A stretch of 64,000 nucleotides of DNA from Hyunsoonleella flava (lineage in GTDB: Bacteria > Bacteroidota > Bacteroidia > Flavobacteriales > Flavobacteriaceae): positions 62,001 through 126,000 of the forward strand of contig NZ_SIRT01000004.1 in NCBI RefSeq assembly GCF_004310325.1. Reading direction: 5' to 3'. Position 1 is the first letter of the stretch; every line of letters begins with the position of its first letter. The translations under genes and the position numbers were made by a program. The notes under the pieces are model-generated. The model worked only from the letters and a program-made list of their open reading frames with translations. It had not been told where the DNA came from and did no database searches. Below are positions 2,780 through 25,509 of the stretch, one piece after another.

Positions 2780-2822
2780 CTAAACTACTGTTTATGAGTT
2801 ATTTGAAAAATGATATTAATCA
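2780..2822 (-). promoter_or_regulatory. FNR/CRP-type box with -7 element, leftward
   Basis: The perfect dyad TGATATTAATCA (2811-2822) is followed on the minus strand, after exactly 23 bp, by TAGTTTAG (2787-2780), one mismatch from the Bacteroidetes -7 consensus TAnnTTTG. The centre of the dyad would sit near -41, the class II activator position. It faces the bactofilin-like gene that starts at 2756. Confidence 0.7.
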
Positions 2823-2858
2823 ACTAGAGGCTATATTTTTAAATCAGATTTTACATTA

Positions 2859-2901
2859 TGATATATATCATTTCGTCATAAAATCTAATTAAATACATTG
2901 A
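2859..2901 (+). promoter_or_regulatory. FNR/CRP-type box with -7 element, rightward
   Basis: The dyad TGATATATATCA (2859-2870) is followed after 23 bp by TACATTGA (2894-2901), which keeps the TAnnTT core. It faces the C_GCAxxG_C_C gene at 2948 and lies back to back with the leftward box at 2811-2822, so the intergenic region carries two separate activator sites. Confidence 0.65.
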
Positions 2902-2947
2902 TAACATCAACCTAAAAGGCTTTAGGCTTAAAAATTAAATAGATACA

Positions 2948-3796
2948 ATGAACACTTCTGTAGAACAAAAGAATGATGCGAAGGAAGTTTTTAAAAATTG
3001 TGGCACTTGCTCCAGAACCTTTGCGCATATTTTAAACAGGGAATTCGGACACATTAAAGGACTTGAAGAACGTGCCTTAAACCCTTTGGCTGGAGGTATT
3101 TTAAATCAAGGGCACCAATGTGGTATGATTTGGGGTGCGGCTTTGGCTGTAGGAGCAGAATCATTTAGAAAATTCAACAATCAGGACCAAGCTATAGCTG
3201 TTGCAGTTTCTGCTACTCAAAGAATTTTGAAATCCTTTATAAAGCAATCTGGAGCAAAAAATTGCAAAGAAATAATTGGTTATGACCTTACTAGTATAGT
3301 AGGTATGACAAGATTCATGTTAAAAATTACACTTCAAGGTATGAAAAACAGCCATTGTTTTAATCTGGCTGAACAATGGGCTCCAAAAGCTATTGACGTA
3401 GCTAATGAAAGCTTATCCGAAAATGCGAAAGTCAATGAAAAGCCCTTAAGTTGCGCCTCAGAAGTTGTAAGGCTTATGGGTGGTAGTGATGAGCAAATAG
3501 TAATGGTGGCGGGTTATGCAGGAGGACTAGGTTTAAGAGGGGGTGCTTGTGGTGCTCTAAGTGCTGCTATTTGGAAGAAGATGTTGGATTGGTGCAGGGA
3601 AAACCCAGATAAAAATCCTCCATATTTCAATAATAAAACTGCAAAAAAAATATTAAAGGTTTTTAATAAGGAAAACCAGTATATAATTCTATGCAGCGAA
3701 ATTTGTGGACAGCATTTCAAAAACTTGAAGGACCATACAGAATACTTAAAAAAAGGTGGTTGCAAAACACTTATTGATTTATTGGCTAAGGCATAA
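2948..3796 (+). CDS. C_GCAxxG_C_C family redox protein
   Basis: 282 residues, cysteine-rich. An N-terminal NCGTCSRTF is followed by NQGHQCGMIWGAALAVGAE, which fits the GCAxxG core of this family, and later by GLRGGACGALSAAIW. Further cysteines are scattered to the C-terminus. Family members are thought to be redox-active and often sit next to oxidoreductases; their reaction is not established. No signal peptide. It is transcribed alone from the FNR-type promoter at 2859-2901, which suits a role under low oxygen. Its length suggests two family modules in tandem. Confidence 0.7.
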   Translation: MNTSVEQKNDAKEVFKNCGTCSRTFAHILNREFGHIKGLEERALNPLAGGILNQGHQCGMIWGAALAVGAESFRKFNNQDQAIAVAVSATQRILKSFIKQSGAKNCKEIIGYDLTSIVGMTRFMLKITLQGMKNSHCFNLAEQWAPKAIDVANESLSENAKVNEKPLSCASEVVRLMGGSDEQIVMVAGYAGGLGLRGGACGALSAAIWKKMLDWCRENPDKNPPYFNNKTAKKILKVFNKENQYIILCSEICGQHFKNLKDHTEYLKKGGCKTLIDLLAKA

Positions 3797-3866
3797 TTCA
3801 ATTATTTCAAGTGAAAGCAAATATTAGTTAGAATTCATAAAATAGAAACTACAAATAGAAAAGTTG

Positions 3867-3901
3867 GAAAAGAATGAAAACCATTTCATCCTTTCTTTTT
3901 T
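3867..3901 (+). terminator. Possible terminator after the C_GCAxxG_C_C gene
   Basis: An imperfect hairpin (ATGAAA 3874-3879 with TTTCAT 3884-3889, extended across one mismatch) is followed by a T-run at 3896-3901. It overlaps the stop codon of the convergent gene at 3886. Weak stem, so the call is tentative. Confidence 0.35.
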
Positions 3902-4476
3902 AGTCGCCTTTTGTCTCTATACACAAAAAAAATACTCTTTACATCAGAAATCCAATTATCATATAAAAATATAAGTGCTATTTCTTCTATAGTTTCAAGT
4001 ATACCTACACCAATCATTATGTAAAAAAGCACTAGTTCTGGATTAAAAAACAACGACCAAAGTATAAAGACACTTTGCACTACTGCAGAAAACTTAGCTA
4101 AATAGGTATGAAAAGCCGTAGCCTTACCATATTTTGAGTATGCAATTGCCATTTGGATTAAGTATGGTAAAAAAGCAATTAAAATGATTATGATATGTTT
4201 AATTATAAATACCTTTTCAAAAAAGAAAAGACCTACTAACCCAATTGTAAATGTAATTTGATCACCTATTGAATCAAGCTGGGAACCTCTTGGACTAGTA
4301 ATTTTTAATTTTCTTGCCAAATAACCATCAATAGCATCAGTACTGTAGCTCACAAGTAAAAACCATGCAAAAACAAGGCGTTCATCAAAACATATCAAAA
4401 CAATTAATACAGGTGCCGCTAATATGCGGTAAAACGAAAACCAATCGGCAATATTGAAGTTTTTGAATGTAAGCAT
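3886..4476 (-). CDS. CDP-alcohol phosphatidyltransferase family protein
   Basis: 196 residues with the family signature D-x2-D-G-x2-A-R...G-x3-D-x3-D, seen as TDAIDGYLARKL followed by RGSQLDSIGD. Several membrane spans follow, e.g. HIIIILIAFLPYLIQMAIAY. These integral enzymes transfer a phosphatidyl group from CDP-diacylglycerol to an alcohol such as glycerol-3-phosphate, serine or inositol; the acceptor cannot be read here. It lies 170 bp downstream of the ABC ATPase and is the last gene of the leftward envelope unit. It is an accessory copy, away from core lipid genes, and may remodel phospholipids under stress (inference). Confidence 0.8.
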   Translation of the reverse strand: MLTFKNFNIADWFSFYRILAAPVLIVLICFDERLVFAWFLLVSYSTDAIDGYLARKLKITSPRGSQLDSIGDQITFTIGLVGLFFFEKVFIIKHIIIILIAFLPYLIQMAIAYSKYGKATAFHTYLAKFSAVVQSVFILWSLFFNPELVLFYIMIGVGILETIEEIALIFLYDNWISDVKSIFFVYRDKRRLKKKG

Positions 4477-4646
4477 ATCTTTATTTTACACAAAATTACA
4501 AGAGACCGTTAAAACTTAAAATGAGGAATATCAATTCATATACTAATGTATTCAGAGTAATTTTTTCGTAATAATCTGGATAATATTCCAACATGAAATT
4601 AAATAAAAAAACACTACTGCTTGAAAACAATATCTTGTAAAACCAA

Positions 4647-8768: not shown

Positions 8769-9374
8769 TTAATTATCAATTTTAATTATAATCCATTTCT
8801 TGTTTTCATTCAATACAGCATAAAGGTTTTTAGATATGATCTTTGATGTTATTTTAGGTGGTTTTTTTAAAGATTTTTTATCTAAAACTACATTAACACC
8901 TTTTGGGTTTAAATAACTTTTTATATCACCGTTTTCATCAATAATTACCTCAAAACACCTATGAGCGATAACATTTTTTCCTAATATCTCGTTTCTTCCT
9001 AGTTCTTCTTTAATTACCGCCAATGCTAAAGCTTGATTATTACTAAAGTTTTGTGCATTTAAAAATTCTGGTTCAATAACAGTTTTTCCAGTTTTATCAA
9101 TATATCCAAAATATAAAATACCTTCTTTTTTAACTGAAATTAAGCATCTGTTGTCCATGAACATCGGATAGTTGCCATGATTTGTTTTACTTAAAACCAA
9201 ATCGTTTCTAAAATCAATAATAATATGTCCATCAGCATCAATGAAACCCCAAGTATTTCCTTTTTTAACAGCAACGACATTTTCATGTATAGGAGCAACA
9301 AAATCAAATTCTTCTTTTGTTTGCGTTAAAGCAATTGTAGGTAGTAACAATAATATAATCAGTACTTTTTTCAT
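8769..9374 (-). CDS. Secreted WG-repeat protein
   Basis: 201 residues with a cleavable signal peptide (MKKVLIILLLLPTIALTQT) and at least two WG-type repeats, NTWGFIDADGHIIIDF and LYFGYIDKTGKTVIEPEF, of the kind G-[YF]-I-[DN]-x-x-G-x-x-[VI]-I. Such repeats form beta-propeller-like binding surfaces; no enzymatic residues are visible. It is the first gene of the leftward unit that runs through the protease, adaptor, permease and ATPase, directly behind the FNR-type promoter at 9400-9442, so it probably acts in the periplasm with the exporter (inference). Confidence 0.7.
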   Translation of the reverse strand: MKKVLIILLLLPTIALTQTKEEFDFVAPIHENVVAVKKGNTWGFIDADGHIIIDFRNDLVLSKTNHGNYPMFMDNRCLISVKKEGILYFGYIDKTGKTVIEPEFLNAQNFSNNQALALAVIKEELGRNEILGKNVIAHRCFEVIIDENGDIKSYLNPKGVNVVLDKKSLKKPPKITSKIISKNLYAVLNENKKWIIIKIDN

Positions 9375-9399: not shown

Positions 9400-9442
9400 T
9401 AAAAGTATCGCCTTTTATGCTATTGCAAAATGATATCCATCA
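9400..9442 (-). promoter_or_regulatory. FNR/CRP-type box with -7 element, leftward
   Basis: The dyad TGATATCCATCA (9431-9442; both TGAT and ATCA half-sites intact) is followed on the minus strand after 23 bp by TACTTTTA (9407-9400), one mismatch from TAnnTTTG. It serves the WG-repeat/site-2 protease/exporter unit. A plus-strand TAGTTTTA at 9463 has a 20 bp spacing and is a poorer fit. Confidence 0.7.
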
Positions 9443-9707: not shown

Positions 9708-10115
9708 TTACTTTTTTAGTTCTAAATCCAGTTTAGCAAGCATAATTAATTCAGACTTGTTTACTCCTGAGAAAGCATAAGCGATATTACTTCCAGTTTT
9801 TAATATTAAGTGTTTTATATCACTTGTAAACAAATGAGGCTGTTCGTTTTTGTAATTTACAAAAGCATTATAACAAGCCTCAGCGTTTAAGTTTTCTTCT
9901 TTGTTTAACCAATCAAAAACAATTTCTATTTGGAAAGCAGCATCAGTTTCAAATTCATCTTCTATTGAATCGACAGACAACCACTGCTTTTTCACCATTT
10001 CCTTTAGCTTATCAAACTCTATTGAGTGCACCTTTTTATCTGCTGCTGCAATAGCATAGAATAACTTACCAAGACTTTGATAAAATTTAAATGTCTTCTT
10101 TTTTTTTATCATCAC
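9708..10115 (-). CDS. TerB-like helical protein
   Basis: 135 residues, all-helical. The segment KLFYAIAAADKKVHSIEFDKLKEMV matches the start of the TerB/DjlA N-terminal fold (an AxADGxxxxxE-like metal-binding turn, here AAADKKVHSIEF). TerB modules occur in tellurite-resistance and phage-stress systems and are linked to the cell surface. No signal peptide. Transcribed leftward from the symmetric FNR-type box at 10169-10180, divergent from the sensor kinase; the broken thioredoxin follows it. Function otherwise unknown. Confidence 0.55.
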   Translation of the reverse strand: MMIKKKKTFKFYQSLGKLFYAIAAADKKVHSIEFDKLKEMVKKQWLSVDSIEDEFETDAAFQIEIVFDWLNKEENLNAEACYNAFVNYKNEQPHLFTSDIKHLILKTGSNIAYAFSGVNKSELIMLAKLDLELKK

Positions 10116-10137: not shown

Positions 10138-10211
10138 TAAAATTACTCTATCTAAAGGAATCTACACATGATATAAATCAGTCAATTACACAAAAAAAAT
10201 CACTAATTTTT
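10138..10211. promoter_or_regulatory. Single FNR/CRP-type box serving two divergent promoters
   Basis: The dyad TGATATAAATCA (10169-10180) has TAATTTTT (10204-10211) 23 bp downstream on the plus strand, facing the sensor kinase at 10248, and TAATTTTA (10145-10138) 23 bp away on the minus strand, facing the TerB-like gene at 10115. Both fit the TAnnTTTG -7 box with one mismatch. One bound activator could therefore serve both directions and autoregulate the kinase/regulator pair. Confidence 0.7.
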
Positions 10212-10247: not shown

Positions 10248-12125
10248 ATGTTTCAACAAGATCAGGAAATATTCAACATCCTTTTAGAATCTGTTTCTGA
10301 AGCAGTTATTATTGTTGACAATCATCAAAAGATTATGGAGATGAATACTTTTGCTGAACATGTTTTTGAATATGCCGAGGGTACTTTGGTTGGTAAGGAT
10401 TTAAGCATGCTTATTCCTTCAAATTACCATGAGAGTCACTCAAAATATTTTGAAGAGTTCATAAAAAGAGGTAAACGCCGCAAAATGGGTAAGGCTATTG
10501 ATATTTTTGCCTTGAAAAAAAGTGGAGAAATTATTCCTGTTGAGGTTGAACTAAATCCTTTTAGCATCTATAACAGAACCTATGTTATGGCACTGATAAA
10601 AGACATTTCAGAGAAAAAAGAGATTGAAAAAGACCTAATGCTTCGAACAAAGGCATTGCAATCTGCCAATAATGGAATCATCATAACTGACGCCCTAAAA
10701 CATGATAATCCAATCATATTTTTTAACGCTGCTTTTCAAAAACTTACTGGGTATTCAGAAGCGGAAATCCTCAATCATAACTGTAGGTTTTTACAAGGTA
10801 AAGACAAAAACCAGAAACCTCTTAGAAGGTTAAGAGCAGCGATAAAAAAAGGGGAAAGCTGTCAAGCCACCTTAAGAAATTATAAGAAAGATGGCACCAT
10901 GTTTTGGAATGATCTTTATGTTTTTCCTATTATAAACGATAATGGCACCCTAACAAATTTTATTGGCATTCAAAACGATGTTACTTTAAGAAAAAGAGCC
11001 GAAGAGGAACGACACCATTTAGCCTCTATTTTTGATGAATCGTTAAATGAAATTTATGTGTTTGATGCAAAAACACTAAAATTTATAAACGTAAATTTTG
11101 GAGGCCAAAAAAATATTGGTTACAGTCTTGAGGAATTGAAAAAAATGACGCCTCTAGATATAAAACCAAATGACGATGAATCTGAATTTAGAAAAACTGT
11201 AGATGTTTTACTTAAAAGAAATGTAGGGAAAATTGAGTTTGAAACCGTACATCAGCGAAAAGACGGTACTATCTATCCAGTAGAGGTGCATATGCAACTT
11301 TCTAGCATAGGTGAAAAAGATGTTTTTGTTGCCATTATTTTAGATATTACAGAGAGGAAAACGTATACCGATAATCTTGAAAAAAAGGTAGAAGAGCGCA
11401 CCAAACAACTTAAAATAGCTCTTGATAAAGAAAAAGAGCTTAATGATTTAAAAACTAAATTTTTGTCATTAGTATCGCACGAATTTAAAACCCCTTTAAG
11501 TGGTATTTTAACATCTAGCCAGCTACTTGGTAAATATACCTTAAGTGATCAACAGGAAAAACGGGATAAACACATAAAAACCATTACAGATAAAGTTCAT
11601 TTTTTAAACAACATCTTAAATGATTTTCTATCTATTGAAAAATTAGAAACTGGCAAGGTAAATTATAAGTTCAGTAATTTTAAACTTAGCAAGGTGCTTA
11701 ATGAGGTGGTGTATAATGCCAACATGCTTTTGAAAGAAGGGCAAAAAATAAAATACCCAGAGAATATCGATGACTTATCTCTATTTCAAGATGAAAAAAT
11801 CATGCAACTAGTACTCTCTAATTTATTGCATAATGCCATAAAATATTCACCGGAAAACACAGTAATAGATATTCATATTAGGCAAAATCATGAGTATACA
11901 GTATTTACAATAAAAGATGAAGGTATTGGGATTCCTAAATCGGACCAAAAAAGCATTTTTGAACGGTATTTTAGAGCTGAAAATGTTTTAAACACCCAAG
12001 GGACAGGAATTGGTTTAAACATTGCTAAAAACCATATTGAAAACCTTGGAGGCACCATAAGCTTTGAAAGTGTTGAAAATGTAGGTACTACTTTTATAAT
12101 TAAAATCCCCAATACCGCTGACTAA
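10248..12125 (+). CDS. Sensor histidine kinase with FixL-like PAS, LOV and third PAS domains
   Basis: 625 residues, no membrane span, so cytoplasmic. PAS1 (about 5-125) aligns by eye with the FixL haem PAS: His64 falls at the position of haem ligand His200 of Bradyrhizobium FixL, although the residue at the Arg220 position is Ile84. PAS2 (about 130-250) is a LOV domain: NCRFLQG with photoactive Cys179, then NYKKDGTMFWN and GIQNDVT, the flavin-contacting Asn and Gln positions. PAS3 spans about 253-370. A coiled coil leads to the kinase: H-box SHEFKTP (His411), N-box NLLHNAIKYSPEN (Asn529), DEGIGIP and GTGIGL. It is followed after 13 bp by the receiver-CRP regulator, its likely partner. LOV call is firm; haem binding is inference. 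Confidence 0.9.
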   Translation: MFQQDQEIFNILLESVSEAVIIVDNHQKIMEMNTFAEHVFEYAEGTLVGKDLSMLIPSNYHESHSKYFEEFIKRGKRRKMGKAIDIFALKKSGEIIPVEVELNPFSIYNRTYVMALIKDISEKKEIEKDLMLRTKALQSANNGIIITDALKHDNPIIFFNAAFQKLTGYSEAEILNHNCRFLQGKDKNQKPLRRLRAAIKKGESCQATLRNYKKDGTMFWNDLYVFPIINDNGTLTNFIGIQNDVTLRKRAEEERHHLASIFDESLNEIYVFDAKTLKFINVNFGGQKNIGYSLEELKKMTPLDIKPNDDESEFRKTVDVLLKRNVGKIEFETVHQRKDGTIYPVEVHMQLSSIGEKDVFVAIILDITERKTYTDNLEKKVEERTKQLKIALDKEKELNDLKTKFLSLVSHEFKTPLSGILTSSQLLGKYTLSDQQEKRDKHIKTITDKVHFLNNILNDFLSIEKLETGKVNYKFSNFKLSKVLNEVVYNANMLLKEGQKIKYPENIDDLSLFQDEKIMQLVLSNLLHNAIKYSPENTVIDIHIRQNHEYTVFTIKDEGIGIPKSDQKSIFERYFRAENVLNTQGTGIGLNIAKNHIENLGGTISFESVENVGTTFIIKIPNTAD

Positions 12126-12138: not shown

Positions 12139-13191
12139 ATGAGAACTGTTTTACTTATAGAAGATGATATCGTTTTAAGAGAAAATACCGCAGAACTCTT
12201 GGAACTTGCAAAATATAAAGTAATTACAGCTTCTAATGGAAAAACTGGTGTTTCCCTAGCCAAAAGGCATCAACCCGATGTTATAGTTTGCGATATTATG
12301 ATGCCAGAGTTAGATGGCTATGGTGCACTTAAAATACTCTCAAAAAGCAAACTAACCAAACACATTCCTTTCATATTTTTATCTGCCAAAACAGAACATT
12401 GTGATATTAGAAAAGGCATGGATTTAGGTGCTGACGATTATATTACAAAACCGTTTTCTGAAGACGAACTCATCAGTGCAATTGAGAGTAGGATAGCTAA
12501 AGCAGCTATTCTGCACGATTTAAGGAACAATCAAAATAACAGTGCCCTACAAGACGAAGATGAGATAAAAACGCTTAACGATCTAAAAAACTTTTTTGAC
12601 GATTACGGCACAGAATTTACTTTTAAAAATGAAGATGTTATTTACCGCGAAGGTGATCATTCAAATTATATATACTTAGTTAATAAAGGTACCGTAAAAT
12701 GCTATCAAATAAATGAATTGGGCAAAGAACTAGTAACCGCTTTATATAAAGAAGACGATTTGTTTGGTTATAATTCCTTCACAAAAATAACACCTTATAA
12801 TGAAACAGCCACTGCCATTGCCGACACAAAACTGGTAGGAATTTCTATTGAAGATTTTAAAAACATATTAAATCAAAACCATAAAGTGGCTATTGAACTT
12901 ATAGAATTAATGGCTGATAATCTATCTACAATAAAAGAGGAGCTAGTACAAATGGCCTATAGCTCGGTTAACAAAAAAACCGCAGCCACCATTTTAAAAT
13001 TTGCAGAAAAAATAAACCGTAAGCCTGATGATTATATAAAAATTTCCAGAAACGACTTAGCAAGTGTTGCCGGTATCGCTCCTGAAACCCTTATTAGAGC
13101 ATTAACTATATTTAAAAAACAGGGCATAATTAAAGCTGATGGCAGAAATATAAAAGTAATTGATATAGAAAGTTTAAAAAAAATAACTTAA
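12139..13191 (+). CDS. Response regulator: receiver fused to CRP/FNR-type DNA-binding module
   Basis: 350 residues. Receiver at 1-120 with acidic pair D9/D10, phospho-acceptor D52 (VIVCDIMMP) and K104 (YITKPF). Residues about 150-240 form a CRP-like beta-roll; it lacks the G-E...R phosphate-binding motif of cAMP receptors and the clustered N-terminal cysteines of FNR. A long dimerisation helix precedes a helix-turn-helix (about 295-335) with recognition helix APETLIRALTIF; E316 and R320 sit where FNR and CRP contact the TGA core. It should therefore read TGA..TCA dyads and be switched by phosphorylation. Follows the LOV/PAS kinase by 13 bp, probably in one operon. Prime candidate for the activator acting at the ten dyads described here. 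Confidence 0.9.
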   Translation: MRTVLLIEDDIVLRENTAELLELAKYKVITASNGKTGVSLAKRHQPDVIVCDIMMPELDGYGALKILSKSKLTKHIPFIFLSAKTEHCDIRKGMDLGADDYITKPFSEDELISAIESRIAKAAILHDLRNNQNNSALQDEDEIKTLNDLKNFFDDYGTEFTFKNEDVIYREGDHSNYIYLVNKGTVKCYQINELGKELVTALYKEDDLFGYNSFTKITPYNETATAIADTKLVGISIEDFKNILNQNHKVAIELIELMADNLSTIKEELVQMAYSSVNKKTAATILKFAEKINRKPDDYIKISRNDLASVAGIAPETLIRALTIFKKQGIIKADGRNIKVIDIESLKKIT

Positions 13192-14582: not shown

Positions 14583-14586
14583 CGTC

Positions 14587-15090: not shown

Positions 15091-15133
15091 TGATAAATAT
15101 CATTGTGCCAGCATCTAGTAGTGTTTATTTTTA
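15091..15133 (+). promoter_or_regulatory. FNR/CRP-type box with -7 element
   Basis: TGATAAATATCA (15091-15102), 23 bp, TATTTTTA (15126-15133). It stands before the second Usp gene at 15152 and probably transcribes the three Usp genes up to 17710. Confidence 0.7.
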
Positions 15134-15151
15134 TTAAGAACACTTAAAGCA

Positions 15152-16006
15152 ATGAGAAAAATATTAATTCCTACCGACTTTTCAGAAAATGCAATGAATG
15201 CTATTGAGTTTGCTGTAGAACTTTTTAAATACGAAAGAAGTGATTTTTATATTATGCACACTTACCAAGACGATATTTACGCTGACAAAGTACTTCTAGA
15301 TAAAGAATCAGTAGAAAAGGTAACAATGCAGGCCAGTGAAGCTTCATTAAAAAAATTGAGCTCTACCCTATCAAAAATAAAAGCTTTCTCACCTAATCCC
15401 AGGCATAACTACAAATTGGTTTCAACTAACAATTTGCTTATAGATGAAGCCGACAAAGTTGTTATTAAACATAATATTGACATCATAATCATGGGCACCA
15501 AAGGCATAACCAATAGTAAAAAAAGAATCTTTGGCACTAACACCCTTCAAGTTTTAAAGTATGTACAATGTCCCGTGTTGGCTATCCCTGCAAACTATAA
15601 ATACACCCAACCTAAACATATACTCTTCCCCACAAATTATATTATTCCTTACAAAAGAAGGGAACTAAAATTATTATGCGAAATGGTATCGCCATACAGA
15701 GCTGTAATTGATATGCTTTACGTCTCAAAAAGTGAAAAATTATCAAGAAGACAAGAAGATAACAAAGCTTTTATCAAGGAAGAGTTATGCAAAAACAGCA
15801 TTAATTTTAAAATAGTAAAGAGCAGAAATATTATCAATTCAATCTACAAATACATAAAAGAGAATTACATAGATATGCTAGTAATGGTAAACACAAGACA
15901 ATCATTTCTAGAATCTTTATTATTTAAACCTACCATTGATGAACTGAGTTTATATCTAGATATTCCATTTTTAGTGCTTCAAAATATGAGACGAAATCAA
16001 TTTTAA
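15152..16006 (+). CDS. Universal stress protein, tandem UspA domains
   Basis: 284 residues. Domain 1 opens MRKILIPTDFSENAMNAIEFA and carries the ATP-type loop MGTKGITNSKKRIFGTN, with Thr in place of the usual Ser. Domain 2 (about 150-280) lacks the loop and ends ARQSFLESLL...DIPFLVLQ in parallel with its neighbours. First of three Usp genes in a row (next starts after 17 bp), behind the FNR-type promoter at 15091-15133. It diverges clearly from the others, so the array looks old rather than freshly duplicated. Confidence 0.92.
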   Translation: MRKILIPTDFSENAMNAIEFAVELFKYERSDFYIMHTYQDDIYADKVLLDKESVEKVTMQASEASLKKLSSTLSKIKAFSPNPRHNYKLVSTNNLLIDEADKVVIKHNIDIIIMGTKGITNSKKRIFGTNTLQVLKYVQCPVLAIPANYKYTQPKHILFPTNYIIPYKRRELKLLCEMVSPYRAVIDMLYVSKSEKLSRRQEDNKAFIKEELCKNSINFKIVKSRNIINSIYKYIKENYIDMLVMVNTRQSFLESLLFKPTIDELSLYLDIPFLVLQNMRRNQF

Positions 16007-16023
16007 TTTAATATGAAATAGTT

Positions 16024-16875
16024 ATGAAAAATATTCTTCTGCCCACCGATTTTTCAGAAAACTCATGGAACGCCATTGCATATGCCTCAAAGCTTTTTAA
16101 AGACAGTGAATGCACATTCTTCTTATTAAACACCTACATACCAGAAATTTATCATGTAGAATATATTTTGATGGAACCAGCTCAGTTTGGTTTGGGAGAT
16201 GCCATTAAAGAAAACTCATTAAAACAATTAAGCGATTTTAAAAACAAAATATCGAACACATTTAAAAACCCAAAGCATAATATAGAAACCATAGCCTCTT
16301 TTAACTCATTAATTTCAGAAATGAAAGACATTGTAGAGGACAAAAATATTGATTATTTGGTAATGGGCACTAAAGGTGCAACTGGAGCCAAAGAAATTTT
16401 ATTTGGCTCTAATACAGTACATGCCTTTAAAAATATAAAATGCCCGATAATGGCAATCCCTGATGGCTTTAGTTTTGAAAAACCTCATGATATATTGTTT
16501 CCAACTGACTATAAAATTGACTATAAAGACCATCATATAAAACCTATTATCAGTATTACCTCACTTTTCAATACTAGAGTTAATATTTTACATGCTACTT
16601 ATGGTTATGAGCTATCTGAAGCTCAAAAAAAGAGCAAACAAAAACTAGAAGTTTATTTCAAAAAAACGTCACTGTTGTTTCATAATGTAAGTGGGCAAAC
16701 GGTTCAAGAAGCCATTAATAATTTTCAATTGAAGTCTAAAATTAACTTATTGGTTATGATTAATAATAAACATTCGTTTTTTGAAAATCTTTTTTTCAAG
16801 AATACCATAAACCAAATTGGGTTTCATTTAAACATTCCCTTTTTGGTAATTCCATCAAAAACCTATAAAACTTAA
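16024..16875 (+). CDS. Universal stress protein, tandem UspA domains
   Basis: 283 residues, opening MKNILLPTDFSENSWNAIAYA, nearly identical over this stretch to the product of 13287. The loop MGTKGATGAKEILFGSN is a full G-x2-G-x9-G-S match. The second domain starts near HDILFPTDYKIDYKDHH and ends in NKHSFFENLFF...NIPFLVIP without the loop. Seventeen bp after its upstream neighbour and four bp before the next Usp gene, so one operon. Length is normal for tandem Usp proteins. Confidence 0.92.
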   Translation: MKNILLPTDFSENSWNAIAYASKLFKDSECTFFLLNTYIPEIYHVEYILMEPAQFGLGDAIKENSLKQLSDFKNKISNTFKNPKHNIETIASFNSLISEMKDIVEDKNIDYLVMGTKGATGAKEILFGSNTVHAFKNIKCPIMAIPDGFSFEKPHDILFPTDYKIDYKDHHIKPIISITSLFNTRVNILHATYGYELSEAQKKSKQKLEVYFKKTSLLFHNVSGQTVQEAINNFQLKSKINLLVMINNKHSFFENLFFKNTINQIGFHLNIPFLVIPSKTYKT

Positions 16876-16879
16876 TACC

Positions 16880-17710
16880 ATGAAATTAAATATCTTACTA
16901 CCTACAGATTTTTCAGATAACGCATGGAGCGCAACCGTATATGCCTTAAAACTTTATGCCAATGAGGAGTGTACGTTTTATTTCTTAAACTCTACATATA
17001 TCAAAGTATCAGTAATGTCAAATTTATCCAATAGGTTGTTAAAAACAATGGAGGAAAATGCCATGAAAGAACTTTCAGATTTAAAAGTTTTAGCTGAAAG
17101 TAGCAATGCGAATGCGAATCATGATTTTCAAACTATTTTGAGTTCACAAGACATAAGGCATGCTATTAAAACCATTATAAGAGAAAAGAACATAGATTTA
17201 ATAGTCATGGGCACAAAAGGTACTACACGTGCTAAGGAGGTTTTCTTTGGAAGCAATACCATAAATGTCATAAAATCTATAAAAGATTGCCCAGTTTTAA
17301 TTGTACCAGATGAATTTGATTTTGTAAAACCAAAACAAATAGCATTTCCCACAGATTTTAATCGATCTTACGAAGCAGATGAAATAGAGCCTTTAAAGCA
17401 TCTAGCAGATTTGTACAATTCTAAAATTAGGATATTGCATATAGATGTTGAAAAGAAACTTAGCGATATACAAGAACAACACCTTACAATGTTGCAAAAC
17501 TACCTGTCTAATTATGAATTTTCATTTCATTGGGTGCCAAATTATGCTAAAAAATCCCAAAGCATTAATGATTTTATCGAAGAATTAGATATTAATATAC
17601 TCGCCATGGTAAGGTATGAACATAGCTTTGTGGAAAGTATTATAAATGAACCTGTAATAAAAAAATTAGGGTTTAAGCCAATAATTCCGTTTTTAGTAAT
17701 TCCGGATTAA
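16880..17710 (+). CDS. Universal stress protein, tandem UspA domains
   Basis: 276 residues, opening MKLNILLPTDFSDNAWSATVYA. The domain-1 loop MGTKGTTRAKEVFFGSN is intact. Domain 2 begins QIAFPTDFNRSYEADE and ends with EHSFVESII...IIPFLVIPD, with no nucleotide loop. It closes the three-gene Usp unit; the next Usp gene has its own FNR-type box at 17719-17730, which starts 9 bp after this stop codon. No sign of damage. Confidence 0.92.
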   Translation: MKLNILLPTDFSDNAWSATVYALKLYANEECTFYFLNSTYIKVSVMSNLSNRLLKTMEENAMKELSDLKVLAESSNANANHDFQTILSSQDIRHAIKTIIREKNIDLIVMGTKGTTRAKEVFFGSNTINVIKSIKDCPVLIVPDEFDFVKPKQIAFPTDFNRSYEADEIEPLKHLADLYNSKIRILHIDVEKKLSDIQEQHLTMLQNYLSNYEFSFHWVPNYAKKSQSINDFIEELDINILAMVRYEHSFVESIINEPVIKKLGFKPIIPFLVIPD

Positions 17711-17718: not shown

Positions 17719-17760
17719 TGATATTGATCATTGCATCTCTTAACCATAAAGATAAATTTA
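17719..17760 (+). promoter_or_regulatory. FNR/CRP-type box with -7 element, 22 bp spacing
   Basis: TGATATTGATCA (17719-17730) then TAAATTTA (17753-17760) after 22 bp, one less than at the other sites. It faces the Usp gene at 17785 and supports choosing that ATG over an upstream TTG at 17731, which would lie inside the promoter. Confidence 0.6.
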
Positions 17761-17784: not shown

Positions 17785-18639
17785 ATGAAACGCAAAATAT
17801 TATTACCTACAGATTTTTCAAAAAATGCGTGGCAAGCCATAAGTTATGCCCTAAAAATATATAAAAATGAAACCTGTGATTTCTATATTCTTAATGTGTT
17901 TTCTGGGGCAAGTAACCTTATGGAAAACTTAATGTTTATGGAACCAGAAAGTGAATTGTATGAAACTGCCAAGTTAGAATCTGAAAACGGTCTAGCAAAA
18001 ATTTTAGACAAGTTAACCTTAAAAGATTATCATAAATCAAAACATCATTTTAAACCTGTTTCAATTCATAATACCGTAGTAGAAGCCATAAAAACTACAG
18101 TTGATGAAAAGGATATAGACATGATTGTTATGGGCACGAAAGGCAAAACAAGATCTAGAGCAAAAGTATTTGGTAGTATAGCTGTTGAAGTTATGGAGAA
18201 AATTAGAAATTGCCCTGTTATTGTTGTACCCGAATTAGCTGAACACTTTCTACCAAAGGAAATTGTTTTCCCTACGGGTTTTAAAACGCCTTTTAAAAAA
18301 CGGGAACTAAACCATTTAATTAACTTGACAAAAAGCTGTGGTGCCACCATTCGTGTTTTGCACATTTCAACAAAGGATACGTTGAGTAAAAAGCAAACAG
18401 GCAATAAAGCGCTTTTACAAGAATACTTTAAGGACGTACCCTATACATTTCATACTCTAAGCAAAATGGATATACCCACTGCCATTAAATGCTTCGTTGA
18501 AAGTAGAGATAGCAATATGATTGCATTTATAAATAAAAAGCATGCTTTTTTTGGTAGTATTTTAACGCATCCATTGGTAAAAACAATAGGGAGTAATTCT
18601 AGAGTACCCATACTAGTGATGCATGATTGGAAAAACTGA
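17785..18639 (+). CDS. Universal stress protein, tandem UspA domains
   Basis: 284 residues from the ATG at 17785 (MKRKILLPTDFSKNAWQAISYA), which matches the start of the other Usp proteins; the open frame extends upstream to a TTG at 17731 that would overlap the promoter. Loop MGTKGKTRSRAKVFGSI, where the Asn after G-S seen in most relatives is replaced by Ile. Domain 2 lacks the loop and ends KHAFFGSIL...RVPILVMHDW. First gene of a unit continuing with the small protein at 18653, the ATP-cone nuclease and the MBL RNase. Confidence 0.9.
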   Translation: MKRKILLPTDFSKNAWQAISYALKIYKNETCDFYILNVFSGASNLMENLMFMEPESELYETAKLESENGLAKILDKLTLKDYHKSKHHFKPVSIHNTVVEAIKTTVDEKDIDMIVMGTKGKTRSRAKVFGSIAVEVMEKIRNCPVIVVPELAEHFLPKEIVFPTGFKTPFKKRELNHLINLTKSCGATIRVLHISTKDTLSKKQTGNKALLQEYFKDVPYTFHTLSKMDIPTAIKCFVESRDSNMIAFINKKHAFFGSILTHPLVKTIGSNSRVPILVMHDWKN

Positions 18640-19144: not shown

Positions 19145-19984
19145 ATGGAAATTGATACAATTGATATTATTAAATCATCAGGTGAAAAAGCAAAGTTTTC
19201 ATTAAACAAATTAAAGGCTTCTTTAAAACGTGTTGGTACTGACGATCAAACAGTAAATCATATAATTTCTAAGGTAAAAGACGAACTGTATCATGGCATT
19301 TCAACAAAAGAAATTTACAATAGGGCTTTTGCATTACTCAAAAAGAAGAATTCACATCTAGCATCAAAATACAAACTAAAAAAGGCTATTTACGAGTTAG
19401 GGCCAACAGGATTTCCTTTTGAGCGTTTTGTTAGTGCCGTATTAGAGTATTCAGGATACAAAACCTCGGTTGGTAGTATCTTACAAGGAAAATGTGTTTC
19501 TCATGAAATAGATATAATAGCACAAAAAAACAATGTAACAACTGTTATTGAATGCAAGTTTCATAGTGAAAAAGGGCTTAATTGTAATGTGAAAATTCCA
19601 CTGTATATCAATTCGCGCTACAACGATATTAAAACATATTGGAATAGCAAAAAAAACAAAAACACCTTGACAAATGGTTGGTTGGTAACCAATACCCGTT
19701 TTACCAAAGATGCCATACAATATGGCACTTGCGCAAATCTATATTTGTTGAGTTGGGATTATCCTAAAAATAACGGGTTAAAAGATCGTATCGATCGCTT
19801 GGGTTTATATCCGATTACTGTATCTACATTATTAAACAATAGAGAGAAACAATTTTTATTAAGTAGAGATATTGTATTGTGCAGATCTTTAATTGGAGAT
19901 TATTTCTATTTAGATCATCTGGGAATCTCTGAAACCAGAAAGAAAAAAATTCTCAATGAAATTAATTTGCTTTGCAACGTGTAA
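19145..19984 (+). CDS. ATP-cone domain fused to a PD-(D/E)XK (Mrr-like) nuclease domain
   Basis: 279 residues. Residues 1-90 form an ATP-cone (IIKSSGEKAKFSLNKLKASL...GISTKEIYNRAFALL), the nucleotide-sensing module known from ribonucleotide reductases and NrdR. Residues about 95-225 are a restriction-endonuclease-like fold: HEIDIIAQ gives the acidic D and TTVIECKF gives the E-x-K of PD-(D/E)XK. A C-terminal helical part ends LGISETRKKKILNEI, similar to a helix-hairpin tip. It suggests a nucleic-acid-cleaving or -binding protein controlled by (d)ATP. Followed by the MBL RNase after 5 bp, which hints at a shared RNA or DNA turnover task. Confidence 0.75.
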   Translation: MEIDTIDIIKSSGEKAKFSLNKLKASLKRVGTDDQTVNHIISKVKDELYHGISTKEIYNRAFALLKKKNSHLASKYKLKKAIYELGPTGFPFERFVSAVLEYSGYKTSVGSILQGKCVSHEIDIIAQKNNVTTVIECKFHSEKGLNCNVKIPLYINSRYNDIKTYWNSKKNKNTLTNGWLVTNTRFTKDAIQYGTCANLYLLSWDYPKNNGLKDRIDRLGLYPITVSTLLNNREKQFLLSRDIVLCRSLIGDYFYLDHLGISETRKKKILNEINLLCNV

Positions 19985-19989
19985 AAGAT

Positions 19990-21363
19990 ATGAAACCAAT
20001 GGTGAACATTACTTTTTTGGGTGCCGCAGGTATTGTTACAGGTTCTAAATTCTTAATTGAAACCCCAGAAAAAAAAATTTTGATAGACTGTGGTTTGTTT
20101 CAAGGATTAAAGGAATTAAGAGTACTTAACTGGGAAAACCTTCCCATAAATGCTGAAACCATAGATATCGTTTTACTCACACATGGGCATTTAGACCACG
20201 TTGGGTATTTACCCAGATTATTAAAACAAGGATTCACAGGCAAAATAATAGGTACAGCGCCAACCCTAGCTATTGCTGAAATTATTCTAAAAGATAGTGC
20301 CAAAATACATGAAGAGGAGGCGAAAAAAGCGAATGAAGAAAAATACACAAAACATAATCCTGCACTTCCGTTTTATAATATATACGAAGCAGAAAAAACC
20401 ATCGCGCTATTTAAAGCAGATCTTGAGGGTAAGTGGATTACATTATCCAAAAATATAACATACCGCTTTCAATACATTGGCCATATTATCGGTGCAACTT
20501 TCATTGAATTAAATCTTTGGGGAAAACGATTTGTGTTTTCTGGGGATATTGGCAGACCAAACGATTATTTACTGGAAAATCCTAAAAGACCAAAATGGGC
20601 CGATTATCTTTTTATCGAAAGCACCTACGGAAGTAAACTGCACCCAGATGAAGACATAGAAAACATCCTTTCGCAATTAATTAAGGAAACCGTTCATAAA
20701 AGAGGGAACTTAATCATTCCTAGTTTCGCAGTAGAACGATTACAAACACTCATGTACGTTCTTTGGAAACTTTATAAACAGCGCAGAATACCAAACATTC
20801 CCATATTTATAGACAGCCCAATGGGAAATAACGTTTTAGAAATTTTTGAACGCTTTCCGAGTTGGCATAAATTACCAATGACTGAGTATAATGCTATGTG
20901 TGATCATATTAATATTAATCAGTCCTATAGAGAAACATGGCAAACTATTGACGACACTAGATCTAAAATTATAATTGCTGGAAGTGGTATGGTCACAGGA
21001 GGCAGAGTTCTTACATACCTGCAACAACTTATAAACAAGCCATCTACAACAGTACTACTAGTAGGATACCAAGCAGAAGGTACTCGAGGTAGACAATTAC
21101 AAGAAGGCACTCATGAAATTCGTCTTTTTGGAAAATATTACCCTGTAAAAGCAACTATTAAACATATAGAAAACCTTTCGGCTCATGCTGACCAAAATGA
21201 CCTGTTACACTGGATCAGTAACATAAAAAATATTCCCGAAACCACGTTTTTGGTTCATGGAGAACCTAATGCTCTGGATGCTTTTCGCGTTAAAATAAAA
21301 GAAACCTTAGGGTGGAATGTTGTTATCCCAAAGCTTATGGACACTAAACAAATAGTGGTCTAA
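19990..21363 (+). CDS. Metallo-beta-lactamase/beta-CASP family RNase-like protein
   Basis: 457 residues from the ATG at 19990; the frame also opens at a TTG at 19972 inside the upstream gene. Metal motif LLTHGHLDHVG (HxHxDH), further ligands FSGDIG and the C-terminal LVHGEPNAL with the preceding AHADQNDL. The beta-CASP insert has the SPMGNNVLEIF and AGSGMVTGGRVLTYL blocks, and an RMMBL segment ends the protein. This is the CPSF73/Ysh1-type group of RNA nucleases. Relatives sit beside Usp and Hsp20 genes in oxygen-limitation regulons of proteobacteria. Expected to process RNA in the cytoplasm during stress. Confidence 0.88.
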   Translation: MKPMVNITFLGAAGIVTGSKFLIETPEKKILIDCGLFQGLKELRVLNWENLPINAETIDIVLLTHGHLDHVGYLPRLLKQGFTGKIIGTAPTLAIAEIILKDSAKIHEEEAKKANEEKYTKHNPALPFYNIYEAEKTIALFKADLEGKWITLSKNITYRFQYIGHIIGATFIELNLWGKRFVFSGDIGRPNDYLLENPKRPKWADYLFIESTYGSKLHPDEDIENILSQLIKETVHKRGNLIIPSFAVERLQTLMYVLWKLYKQRRIPNIPIFIDSPMGNNVLEIFERFPSWHKLPMTEYNAMCDHININQSYRETWQTIDDTRSKIIIAGSGMVTGGRVLTYLQQLINKPSTTVLLVGYQAEGTRGRQLQEGTHEIRLFGKYYPVKATIKHIENLSAHADQNDLLHWISNIKNIPETTFLVHGEPNALDAFRVKIKETLGWNVVIPKLMDTKQIVV

Positions 21364-21412: not shown

Positions 21413-21455
21413 TGATATATATCATTGCTAAAATATGTTACTCTAGATATATTGT
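21413..21455 (+). promoter_or_regulatory. FNR/CRP-type box with -7 element
   Basis: TGATATATATCA (21413-21424), 23 bp, TATATTGT (21448-21455; TAnnTT core kept). It stands before the Hsp20 gene at 21492. Confidence 0.65.
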
Positions 21456-21491: not shown

Positions 21492-22019
21492 ATGACAACG
21501 TTAAGTAAACGAAGAAGACGAAATGGGTTGTCTCCCTTAGAGAACAGATTGTTCACACCTTGGAGAAACAACCTTTTGAGACCTTGGGGAAGAAGGCTAT
21601 TCCCTTCTGATTTTGATGAATTAAATAGCCTGTCAAGGTTTGACGACATCTTTGAAGATGACTTTTTTGAAAGTGATAGCCTGATGCCAGCTATGAATGT
21701 AAAAGAGCATGAAGAAGATTTTGAAATAGAACTAGCTGCTCCTGGATTTAACAAAAAGGATTTTGAAGTTACTATTGAAGAAGACGTGCTTCAGGTTTGT
21801 GCTGAAAAGGAAGCTGAGGAAGAAAAAGAGGATAACGATTATTCTAGAAAAGAGTTTAGCTACAAATCGTTTAAAAGATCAATGGTTCTCCCAACTAGTG
21901 TTGACTTAGAACAAGATGTTAAAGCCTCCTACAAAAACGGCATCTTAAAAGTAAAATTATTGAAAAAGGAAGATGTTATTGAAAAGGAACCTCCAAAAAA
22001 GGTTATTGAGGTTAATTAA
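21492..22019 (+). CDS. Small heat-shock protein (Hsp20/alpha-crystallin)
   Basis: 175 residues. A basic, Trp/Phe-rich N-terminal arm (about 1-70: RRRRNGLSPLENRLFTPWRNN, then an acidic stretch) precedes an alpha-crystallin domain (about 75-160) with ELAAPGFNKKDFEV, SYKSFKRSMVLP and the conserved A-x-Y-x-N-G-I-L-x-V as ASYKNGILKVKL. Holdase chaperone, cytoplasmic oligomer. The C-terminal KKVIEVN carries an I-x-V-like anchor. The N-terminal arm is longer and more basic than in the usual flavobacterial Hsp20. Own FNR-type promoter and own terminator make it a one-gene unit. Confidence 0.92.
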   Translation: MTTLSKRRRRNGLSPLENRLFTPWRNNLLRPWGRRLFPSDFDELNSLSRFDDIFEDDFFESDSLMPAMNVKEHEEDFEIELAAPGFNKKDFEVTIEEDVLQVCAEKEAEEEKEDNDYSRKEFSYKSFKRSMVLPTSVDLEQDVKASYKNGILKVKLLKKEDVIEKEPPKKVIEVN

Positions 22020-23223: not shown

Positions 23224-23878
23224 CGATATCAACCTAACACCTAAAAGCCTGTGTACCTTGTATTTTGCTTTACTATTAGTGGGATGTTCCTCAACCAAAC
23301 TAATTAGTAGCTGGAAAAACCCAGAACATGACAAACATAATCTAAAAAAGGTTTTAGTAATTGGTGTTACACCCAATTTTGAAGCACGAAAGGCTTATGA
23401 GCTGCAAATAGCTTTAGAGTTAAACGCAAGAAAAATTAATGCTTTACAGAGTGCGGTAGTATTTGAATCATCCTTTCGAGACTCTCAGCAAACAGAAAAA
23501 GACATCGAGGCGGAAGTAAACAAATTAATCTCTTCAGGATACGATACTGTTTTAGTCTCATTAGTTAAAGGTGTTGAGGATAATCGTTCCCATACGAGCG
23601 AATCTTCAAAAGTAGATTATCGTCTAAGAAATTTTATTGGTTACTATTTTAAAAACCAGCAAGCTAAGTTTAATCAGGAATACTATACCAGCTATAAAGT
23701 GTTTCATATTGAAACTTCCATTTATAACTTAAAAAGCAGTTCAAATAAATCCTTAATTTGGAGAAGCCTGATAGATTTGATTGACCCAAAAAATGACGCT
23801 AAGGCCATCGACATATACTCAAAAAAAATTATTAAAATTTTAGAAAGAGATGAAATAATTCCAAAAAAAGCGAAGTGA
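23207..23878 (+). CDS. Lipoprotein, DUF4136-like, second of a related pair
   Basis: 223 residues, paralogue of the preceding gene with shared W-K-N-P, V-L-V-I-G-V-T-x-N-F-E-A-R and IWRSLIDLIDPK motifs. The signal peptide is preceded by an unusually long N-region (about 16 residues before the hydrophobic stretch LCTLYFALLLVGCSST); the lipobox is VGC. A later start would need a non-ATG codon, so the annotated ATG at 23207 is kept. Overlaps its partner by 17 bp. Function unknown. Confidence 0.75.
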   Translation: MKKFYSDINLTPKSLCTLYFALLLVGCSSTKLISSWKNPEHDKHNLKKVLVIGVTPNFEARKAYELQIALELNARKINALQSAVVFESSFRDSQQTEKDIEAEVNKLISSGYDTVLVSLVKGVEDNRSHTSESSKVDYRLRNFIGYYFKNQQAKFNQEYYTSYKVFHIETSIYNLKSSSNKSLIWRSLIDLIDPKNDAKAIDIYSKKIIKILERDEIIPKKAK

Positions 23879-23881
23879 TTT

Positions 23882-24607
23882 CTATCCAGAAATTATACCT
23901 TCTAGAATATCTCCAACAAAGTAAGACACAGTAGCAGCAAGAATACCCAAAATTAATGTTTCCAAAATACCTTTTAGCTTACTAGTCTGTGTAACGTAAG
24001 TTTTTAAAAAGCCTATGAAAATAAAAGCCAGAGAAGTAAAGATACTCGTCCAAACGAAAAGGTTTCCAGCGAAATAGCTCATATAATCCCAAACATAAAT
24101 CATTAATGGAATTAACCCTATCAAAATAAACGAAACATAAGTAACAACACCCATTGTTACTGGTGATTTTTTTTCTTCAGACATCATTAATTCATCTTTC
24201 ATCATAACATCTACCCATCGGTCTCTATCAGCAGTTATGGTATCAACTACATCTTCGAGTAATTGTCCTTTAAAGCCTTTATTTCTGTATATGGTTTTAA
24301 CCTCTTCGCGCTCGCTCTCTGGTGTGTTATCAACCTCCCAATATTCCATCAACTTATGTTTATTATAATTATCCTTTACTGATTTTGAAGATAAATAAGC
24401 CCCTATTGACATAGCAAATCCATCTGCCAGCAAATTTGCAAACCCAAGGATAATAATAACCTCGTTATTCAAACCAGCACCAACAGCTCCTGAAACTACT
24501 GCAAATGTAGTAACAGCACCGTCAATACCACCATACACAAATTCGCCCAAATATGCCTGATATTTTGTTAGGCAAACAGTGCCACTATTAATTTGATTTT
24601 CTGACAT
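23882..24607 (-). CDS. VIT1/CCC1 family transporter
   Basis: 241 residues. [21 protein letters not shown] and [22 protein letters not shown] are the first two membrane segments of the VIT1/CCC1 family of Fe2+/Mn2+ transporters, followed by the acidic cytoplasmic metal-binding region ([17 protein letters not shown]...[12 protein letters not shown]) and three C-terminal spans. Role: moves ferrous iron or manganese out of the cytoplasm, a sensible partner for a low-oxygen programme in which Fe2+ rises (inference). Ends 4 bp from the convergent lipoprotein gene; starts 11 bp after the Usp gene at 24618, probably in one operon. Confidence 0.88.
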
Positions 24608-24617
24608 ATCTTTTATA

Positions 24618-25448
24618 TTAAGAATGGAAGATTAACAAGGGCACATCAATTTTATTACTAATTTGTGTTGTTGACGACCCTGTAAAGAAACGTTCAAAAA
24701 GAGTTTCTTTTTGAACCAATAATATCAAAATATCTATAGCATTAGTTTGAACATAAGTACTAACTGCATAATGCATAGGAACACTTTTTATACTATGATA
24801 TTTGTGGTTTATTTCCTTTAAGGAATAATTAAGTTGCTCATTATCTATTCTTTCCTCTTCAGAATCTTCATTACTAGGGTTTATTCTTAAAAAATGTAGA
24901 GCATTACTAAAGCGATTAACAAATTCTAATACATGGGCAAAAGCACTGCTGCTAAGGGAATCATTTAAATCTAATGGTAACAAAACCTCTTTCGGGATTC
25001 TATACTCAAACTCTTCAGGAATTACCAATGTTGAGCAATCAATCTTTCTTATCACATTAATGGTATTACTACCAAAAATAACTTCTTTTGCGCCTGTTAC
25101 ACCATTGGTTCCCATTACAATTAAATCGATTTCTTTAGATGCTTTCATTTGTTTGATTGCATCCGTCAAACTATCAAAATCAACTACAATTTTATAGATG
25201 TAATTTTCATCTTCGATTTCATTTTTAAACTTGTTAACTAACTTCATTAATTTTAGTTTTGATTTTTTTATGATAGCATCGTATATACTATCTCGACTTA
25301 ATATCAAATCATCACTAGCATAAGATGATGATCTTTGCACATGTAAAACATAGAAGTTGCATACATTGCCCTTAAGCAGTTGCAATGCATAATGCATCGC
25401 ATTTATAGAACATTCTGAGAAATCTGTTAACAATAAAATATTTTTCAT
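24618..25448 (-). CDS. Universal stress protein, tandem UspA domains
   Basis: 276 residues, the only leftward Usp here. It opens [21 protein letters not shown], with LLTDFS instead of the LPTDFS of the others. Loop [17 protein letters not shown] is intact in domain 1; domain 2 ([12 protein letters not shown]...) is more divergent and ends [20 protein letters not shown] with no loop. Leads the unit that continues into the VIT1-type transporter. Its promoter at 25467-25509 has the one imperfect dyad of the set but the same 23 bp spacing. Confidence 0.92.
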
Positions 25449-25466
25449 AGTCTTAGCCTTTACCAG

Positions 25467-25509
25467 TAAATTTAGTGGAAAGACTTAGATCCTAATATGA
25501 TATTGCTCA
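25467..25509 (-). promoter_or_regulatory. Imperfect FNR/CRP-type box with -7 element, leftward
   Basis: TGATATTGCTCA (25498-25509) has one mismatch in a half-site (CTCA for ATCA). On the minus strand TAAATTTA (25474-25467) follows after 23 bp. It faces the Usp/VIT1 unit starting at 25448. Confidence 0.55.

Follow-up and report, generated by a model that had tools for sequence, protein, structure and literature searches.

What switches on the stress-related genes near the left end of this 64-kb stretch of the Hyunsoonleella flava genome (the window; positions 62001-126000 of contig C34 in the 3.81-Mb genome, designated G000), many of which lie behind the same palindrome, TGAT-N4-ATCA? A first-pass annotation of the sequence had read ten such dyads as FNR-type sites at a fixed distance from a Bacteroidota -7 box and as parts of a single switch. 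To our knowledge, little is known of activator-dependent promoters in Bacteroidota, in which the core promoter differs from that of Escherichia coli. The answer favored here is that the protein encoded at 12139-13191, a receiver domain fused to a CRP-type output, is the main activator of this gene island, acting at class II sites under the control of the kinase with a heme-type PAS domain encoded beside it. We put the probability of this reading at roughly 0.7; the role of the fusion as main activator of this island is thus likely rather than proven. The observations behind it are those of the site, its spacing, its position relative to genes, its conservation, the gene linkage, the domain architecture and the covariation of an RNA.

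A promoter class with a 23-bp spacing

The promoters in the window and the operon of the proposed activator are listed below. Scores are in bits and come from a profile trained on 60 promoters from other genomes (leave-own-genome-out).

2782-2822, minus strand: predicted class II promoter, dyad 2811-2822 with TAGTTT at 23 bp, before gene 1629-2756 (25.8)
2859-2899, plus strand: predicted class II promoter before the gene for a C_GCAxxG redox protein, 2948-3796 (25.8)
4493-4533 (dyad 4522), minus strand: added promoter, one-mismatch dyad TGATATTCCTCA with 23 bp and TAATTT, 45 bp before gene 3886-4476 (17.5)
9402-9442, minus strand: predicted class II promoter before the leftward gene run starting with 8769-9374 (25.2)
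10140-10180, minus strand: predicted class II promoter before gene 9708-10115 (27.0)
10169-10209, plus strand: promoter from dyad 10169, facing the kinase-regulator operon (18.4)
10248-12125, plus strand: histidine kinase, heme-type PAS - LOV - PAS - HisKA - HATPase (Pfam, PDB matches, alignments)
12139-13191, plus strand: receiver - cNMP-binding fold - HTH_Crp_2 fusion, the proposed activator (Pfam, 26-member alignment, FNR alignment)
13224-13264, plus strand: predicted class II promoter before universal stress protein gene 13287-14147 (32.0)
14540-14580, plus strand: strongest promoter match in the window, with no convincing protein gene behind it (35.2)
15091-15131, plus strand: predicted class II promoter before universal stress protein-like genes 15152-17710, the second and third named by reading (32.5)
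17719-17758, plus strand: promoter with 22-bp spacing before universal stress protein-like gene 17785-18639 (ATG start; by reading) (12.3)
21413-21453, plus strand: predicted class II promoter before Hsp20 gene 21492-22019 (26.2; Hsp20 family promoter-linked in 7 genomes)
25469-25509, minus strand: promoter with one-mismatch dyad TGAGCAATATCA before gene 24618-25448 (15.6)

The window holds 11 perfect dyads against 1.71 expected (the maximum in 100 shuffles was 5), and a dyad followed by TAnnTT at 21-24 bp occurs 10 times against 0.20 expected. Nine of the 11 lie in the region first annotated; all nine are intergenic, and these and the one-mismatch dyad at 25498 have the positions, strands and spacings originally given (23 bp; 22 bp at 17719). 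The other two, at 30818 and 52132, were rejected as members of the regulon, being inside genes and without a box at 21-25 bp. When the window was ranked with the leave-own-genome-out profile, the sites of the first list took ranks 1-9, 12 and 13 (10169 counted in both directions), while ranks 10 and 11 went to 4522 (minus) and to the opposite side of 13224. The next-best match reached 8.6 bits, and the reversed window gave none above 13. The original list therefore holds as given, with the additions that 4522 was missed and that 10169 serves both directions.

Beyond the window, the dyad as such is mostly background: the genome has 123 perfect copies and its reversed control 82. The longer form TGAT-N4-ATCATT has 38 matches (18 in the control), 18 of which fall within C34:51380-83426. 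A 96-kb part of C34 contains 20 dyads; four are inside genes, all without a box, and 15 of the 16 outside open reading frame (ORF) calls have one at 22-23 bp, the sole exception being C34:59143. A promoter profile, its training partly on the H. flava sites themselves, found 16 matches at E<=0.01 in the whole genome, 15 of them in C34:49654-83453, so that the prediction of a pattern peculiar to this region survived the genome-wide search, the self-training being borne in mind. The island extends from C34:49654 to about 25509 of the window, that is, some 12 kb beyond the left window edge. In that extension (C34:49654-62000) the promoter class stands before genes for a universal stress protein, Pyridox_ox_2, a zinc-ribbon protein, patatin and MlaE.

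Is the spacing kept in relatives? Neighborhoods of the regulator gene were taken for 21 of the 27 genomes with a full-length match to the fusion (those of G012, G033, G036, G042, G058 and G087 were left out), and spanned mostly 40 kb, 20-35 kb in four relatives and 96 kb in H. flava. Of the 108 perfect dyads that they contain, 75 have TAnnTT at exactly 23 bp, and the count at each other distance between 5 and 59 is 0-8. A further set of 77 flavobacterial loci, not used to derive the rule (the best 80 of a capped list, less three duplicates), gave 297 dyads; here 230 boxes stood at 23 bp and 2-16 at each of the remaining distances between 5 and 49. With relaxed halves, TGAY-N4-RTCA, the figures were 444 and 7-26. 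Of the 135 profile matches scoring at least 17, 133 are outside any ORF longer than 100 aa. This comparison of sequences establishes the promoter class and its geometry as first proposed.

In Flavobacterium psychrophilum, the -7 box occupies -12 to -5 (PMC9723704). With the box there and a gap of 23 bp, the 12-bp dyad spans -47 to -36 and is centered at -41.5. This is the position of a class II activator, and the fixed distance to the core agrees with it, so that the class II placement on a Bacteroidota -7 box predicted in the first reading is borne out by the spacing and the published box position. Among 123 intergenic matches with a downstream start, the dyad-to-start-codon distance peaks at 47-60 bp, implying a leader of about 12-25 bases.

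The site differs from the classic FNR box in its flanks. Over the 75 sites the consensus is (A/C)TGAT-N4-ATCAT, in broader form (A/C)TGAY-N4-RTCAT, with C or A before TGAT in 95% and T after ATCA in 96%. The 230 further sites agree: position -1 is C in 127, A in 65, T in 31 and G in 7 (192 with C or A), and position +12 is T in 218, A in 7, G in 4 and C in 1. The flanks of FNR, T before and A after, occur in 4% and 0% of the 75 sites and in 31 and 7 of the 230; on these counts TTGAT-N4-ATCAA, the identity originally assigned, was rejected. The -7 box reads TAnnTT, then T (67%), then A or G. The activator had also been supposed to replace the -33 TTG. This is not simply so, since a degenerate TTT/TTG (T 96%, T 68%, T 65% or G 25%), a weak -33 remnant, still abuts the dyad and ends 20 bp before the -7 box. 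The spacer sequence is not conserved, which argues against a copied repeat.

The receiver-CRP fusion and its probable partner, a kinase with a heme-type PAS

Nor is the candidate regulator an FNR, as had been assumed; it is the receiver-CRP fusion beside the heme-PAS kinase. Residues D9, D52, K104, E316 and R320 are invariant over the 26 members aligned full length. The alignment to solved FNR begins at FNR chain residue 66, and the recognition helix keeps Glu and Arg. The N-terminal Fe-S cysteine region of FNR was not found in the fusion, where Pfam places the receiver. The system thus shares with FNR/Anr class II promoters the dyad center at -41.5 and the CRP/FNR fold, and differs from them in the flanking bases, in an Ile of the recognition helix where solved FNR has Ser, and in the receiver that replaces the Fe-S N terminus.

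The fusion was identified by the earlier reader as the protein to be footprinted, and its genomic company supports it as the candidate activator. The kinase gene adjoins the fusion gene in all 21 genomes (20 by H-box motif, one by homology) and in 72 of 74 further loci (the 77 less three in which a regular expression failed to recover the regulator). Immediately downstream of the fusion gene, 20/21 genomes have a class promoter at a score of at least 13, with a matrix trained on these regions, and 63/74 further loci have one at a score of at least 15. Genomes with the fusion have a mean of 6.1 profile matches (E<=0.01; 27 genomes, 17 of which supplied training sequence), compared with 1.0 in 72 without it (p 6e-11), and the ten without training sequence, of which G002 and G087 have none, still average 4.2 (p 7e-4); these p-values overstate independence, as the genomes are related. 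In the gap before the kinase gene, a site is present in 15/21 genomes; all 15 sites are directed toward the other gene, and three of them, that of H. flava included, toward the kinase as well, so that general autoregulation of the kinase operon is not claimed. The H. flava dyad at 10169 is flanked in either direction by a -7 box at 23 bp (10140-10209), and one dimer bound there could serve two divergent promoters. The fusion-kinase pair is present in Algibacter luteus and Maribacter ulvicola, and in its LOV form in Seonamhaeicola sediminis. A second or third copy of the fusion gene occurs at G018:C5:222335-223363, G042:C12:387218-388249, G048:C283 and C314:2071, G058:C85, G033:C81 and G022:C16:14639.

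What would the kinase sense? Its first PAS domain matched 14 PDB sequences: DosP (one entered as yddU, which we take to be DosP), FixL, one "heme pas sensor" and one multi-sensor kinase. In the kinase alignments, the residue opposite the heme ligand of DosP is His in 20/21 genomes and 68/72 further loci; kinase 10248-12125 keeps it. The FixL arrangement, a PAS domain with an axial His in a histidine kinase, is therefore present by sequence, and heme binding is predicted. The H. flava kinase also carries an inserted LOV domain (10647-11021, core NHNCRFLQ / NCRFLQ), with strong matches to LOV photoreceptors in the PDB, and a further PAS domain. It has the LOV core with the photoactive Cys motif, as LOV histidine kinases do, and photochemistry is predicted; it departs from them in having a heme-type PAS ahead of LOV and a receiver-CRP gene next to its own. 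From the domains and the gene content, oxygen would be the signal. In favor of the reading, the fusion-kinase pair of G002 and G003 is found about 4 kb from ccoN, beside a metal-ATPase gene preceded by a class promoter, and in G002 the next gene is ccoS. F. psychrophilum raises its cbb3 oxidase under oxygen limitation (PMC9723704).

In the proposed circuit, the kinase would sense oxygen by its DosP/FixL-type heme PAS, and perhaps also blue light by LOV in H. flava, and would phosphorylate the receiver of the fusion. A dimer of the fusion would then bind (A/C)TGAY-N4-RTCAT and recruit RNA polymerase to sigma-A promoters whose -7 box is good and whose -33 box is weak, the dyads serving as class II sites of this CRP/FNR-type activator. 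Its targets would be universal stress proteins, Hsp20, an RNase, an S2P-CBS protease, redox and envelope genes and a tandem structured RNA. The oxygen signal, the phosphotransfer, the DNA binding by the fusion and the activation are steps that we infer. The circuit would amount to FixL-FixJ-FixK collapsed into one step and running a gene set like those of DosR and lxa. The FixL-FixJ-FixK systems of rhizobia and Burkholderia likewise combine a heme-PAS kinase with a CRP/FNR-type output without the Fe-S region, are tied to a cbb3 oxidase and include two CRP/FNR proteins with similar sites, FixK and FnrN (PMC4999443, PMC7888657). The present system differs in its box, (A/C)TGAY-N4-RTCAT rather than TTGAT-N4-ATCAA, in its Bacteroidota -7 box and in the LOV domain of some kinases. 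It also lacks the separate FixJ step: receiver and CRP-type output form one protein, and no separate FixJ was found at the locus, FixJ elsewhere in the genome not having been searched for. Neither the receiver-CRP/heme-kinase pair nor this promoter class in flavobacteria was named in the titles and abstract openings listed by searches of an openly licensed library, outside which most subscription papers lie.

Alternatives to a single oxygen-responsive activator

Several points weigh against this reading, to which the kinship behind the p-values must be added. G053 has no promoter behind its fusion gene, nor do 11 of the 74 further loci at a score of at least 15. Three fusion genomes have few profile matches at the cut-off (G002 0, G087 0, G003 1), though in G002 and G003 weaker sites of the class flank the kinase-regulator operon. 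The heme-position His is absent in 5/93 kinases. The remaining points concern a second regulator, an FNR-like protein encoded at G000:C23:191586-192260, about 3 kb from ccoN. Its recognition helix, TESAIRVL, has Glu, Ile and Arg in common with that of the fusion, PETLIRAL. Among 30 ccoN upstream regions, taken from 60 genomes searched, the dyad, 23-bp gap and box occur in 28, with TGAC or TGAT halves and whether the fusion is present or not (one more has 24 bp and one has no site). Of the 24 family genomes with the FNR-like protein only, 20 have at least one profile match. Finally, the 23-bp sites near the fusion in the 21 genomes are of mixed type: 75 TGAT/ATCA, 31 TGAT/GTCA, 29 TGAC/ATCA and 16 TGAC/GTCA.

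The ccoN geometry and the matches in FNR-only genomes suggest that the sites may be shared, and the mixed halves in relatives mean that two sets of sites are not cleanly separated by sequence. The promoter class probably serves the cbb3-linked FNR-like protein too, and it is quite possible that this protein shares sites with the fusion. One form of this would be a shared box at which the fusion acts at mild and the FNR-like protein at severe oxygen shortage. There is a precedent in rhizobia, where FixK and FnrN bind the same TTGAT-N4-ATCAA (the anaerobox) and act in two oxygen stages (PMC7888657). Some separation is nonetheless suggested in H. flava itself, where a box at 23 bp follows 15 TGAT/ATCA sites and one TGAC/ATCA site in the 96-kb stretch, while ccoN (G000:C23:195224) has TGAC/GTCA halves. 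By our analysis the chances for and against such a two-stage scheme are about equal, and it would be compatible with the fusion as main activator in everything save exclusivity. Of the single switch first proposed, then, the one promoter class stands, and control by the fusion may not be exclusive.

A good deal less probable is a scheme in which the island is in truth activated by the cbb3-linked FNR-like protein and the receiver-CRP protein is a co-regulator or active elsewhere. The ccoN promoters, the similar helix and the matches in FNR-only genomes all speak for it. When the 60 family genomes are sorted by regulator (the FNR-like protein being scored present where a non-fusion match reached about 150 bits), those with neither protein average 0.3 matches (1/10 genomes with a match), those with the FNR-like protein only 2.1 (20/24), those with the fusion only 5.3 (9/9) and those with both 6.8 (16/17). 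The nine fusion-only genomes have 2-8 matches each, and six of them supplied training sequence; the three that did not have 5, 8 and 6. The mean of the nine, more than that of the FNR-only genomes, argues against the FNR-like protein as island activator, as do the clustering of the promoters round the fusion gene and the different halves of island and ccoN sites in H. flava, a separation that fails in some relatives. On the other side of this comparison, at least three of the genomes classed as fusion only (G004, G042 and G047) hold other CRP/FNR proteins. From these distributions, uncorrected for kinship, either protein seems able to sustain the promoter class; the fusion goes with the survival island.

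Could the switch in H. flava be blue light, by way of LOV, and not oxygen? The LOV core is intact and its photoreceptor matches are strong, and the heme-position His is lost in 4/14 LOV kinases compared with 1/79 of the others (p 0.0016, not corrected for kinship). This more frequent loss hints that oxygen input has been exchanged for light input in some lineages. For H. flava, however, light as the switch is improbable, as its own kinase retains the His, LOV is limited to 14 of 93 homologous kinases and the genes are of a type associated with low oxygen. Least of all can the palindromes be put down to chance, to a dispersed repeat or to repressor operators that keep no set distance from a promoter: the 123 dyads in the genome are largely background and some are coding, but the single-base spacing peak over the 77 further loci and the scarcity of high-scoring matches within ORFs make this very improbable, and chance or a dispersed repeat was rejected on the spacing peaks and the leave-own-genome-out profile.

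Target genes and a structured RNA array

With the fusion taken as activator, which genes would it serve? Families were counted as promoter-linked at a score of at least 17 in the 21 genomes, each being named from one scanned representative. Universal stress proteins lead, with 40 genes in 18 genomes, followed by a small conserved protein (10 genomes), Hsp20 (7), Pyridox_ox_2 (5), MlaE (4), HPF (4), HemN (3) and cytochrome c (3); a DnaJ-like protein, PfkB, an M50-CBS protease, a metal ATPase and CcoS are linked in one or two cases. Together with Pfam, these families confirm the stress, chaperone, RNase and protease content first described. The small conserved protein is that of 9708-10115, which has no Pfam match, and 13287-14147 clusters with a Pfam Usp protein. 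Gene 3886-4476 is phosphatidyltransferase-like by reading; its look-alike in G009 is promoter-linked, and pgsA models match that one below cut-off. Two more products in the island were assigned by Pfam:

19972-21363, plus strand: beta-CASP/RMMBL ribonuclease-type protein
23882-24607, minus strand: VIT-family transporter, behind universal stress protein-like gene 24618-25448

The gene set resembles that of known dormancy regulons. DosR is a LuxR-type regulator, and HPF and the M50-CBS protease, also promoter-linked in relatives here, have DosR counterparts. Universal stress proteins, Hsp20/alpha-crystallin and phosphofructokinase are common to the present set, the DosR regulon of Mycobacterium tuberculosis and the lxa locus of Burkholderia cenocepacia, the last of which is also a single physical cluster (PMC6127331). 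Unlike DosR and lxa, the island has a receiver-CRP fusion as its putative activator, belongs to another phylum with another promoter, and includes structured RNAs. Its likeness to the dormancy regulons is one of gene families, and low-oxygen induction is predicted from it. This suggests a dormancy regulon in flavobacteria of this family akin to those of Mycobacterium and Burkholderia and built from other parts, with a strict rule (dyad, 23 bp, TAnnTTT) that has hundreds of instances and comes with a named candidate activator and sensor kinase.

The sites stand before transcription units, as was claimed, with the qualification that the strongest, at 14540, precedes a non-coding RNA. Behind it lie tandem structured RNAs of about 180 nt:

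14612-14800, plus strand: structured RNA copy 1 (model E 2.5e-20; structure and covariation)
14790-14974, plus strand: structured RNA copy 2, in tandem (model E 5.6e-16)

A class promoter at the equivalent place, behind the FWGWY gene, was found in 19 genomes or loci. Thirteen of these have one to three hairpins of the form GAAACAGGA...TCCTGTTTC at a spacing of about 180 nt, and six have no hairpin of the searched form. Folding of 21 of 24 units gave a consensus of 38 pairs, 25 of them with changes on both sides; the divergent-looking first units of G009, L217 and L224 were omitted, which favors the structure. In this set 90.5% of cells pair, compared with 42-55% when the partners are slid, and double changes number 102, compared with 36 in shuffles. 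The resulting model finds the two H. flava copies and, with strict filters, matches at E<=0.001 in 8/99 genomes, three of which supplied units to it. All eight belong to the 27 fusion-bearing genomes (chance 1.3e-5, not corrected for kinship), and the matches lie 104-1654 bp from a fusion gene; the G048 match, counted among the eight, is doubtful, being at a contig end, on the strand opposite the fusion gene and overlapping an ORF. In G018 and G042 the RNA has a second fusion gene on one side and an Hsp20-like gene (by reading) on the other, and is preceded by a class site, weak in G018. Rfam gave no match at the gathering score in window positions 1-30000; in 14500-15150 there were four matches, all below that score. 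The RNA of 14612-14974 is thus a covariation-supported family without an Rfam match, linked in relatives to the receiver-CRP gene, and its known promoter gives it a predicted condition of expression.

Taken whole, the proposal would be that across Flavobacteriaceae a DosR-like survival island is governed, through strict class II promoters, by a one-step FixL-to-FixK-like circuit, that the strongest of these promoters in H. flava drives a new tandem structured RNA family linked to the regulator gene, and that some lineages are exchanging oxygen for light; so broad a statement is tentative, with odds somewhat under even.

Profile matches of H. flava off contig C34, some of them inside genes, were not used as evidence. 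One, at C3:29622, stands before an outer-membrane-like protein (by reading). Another, a weak match at C2:74507 (E 0.06), stands outside the island before a cytochrome c gene (by reading), and cytochromes resembling its product are promoter-linked in relatives.

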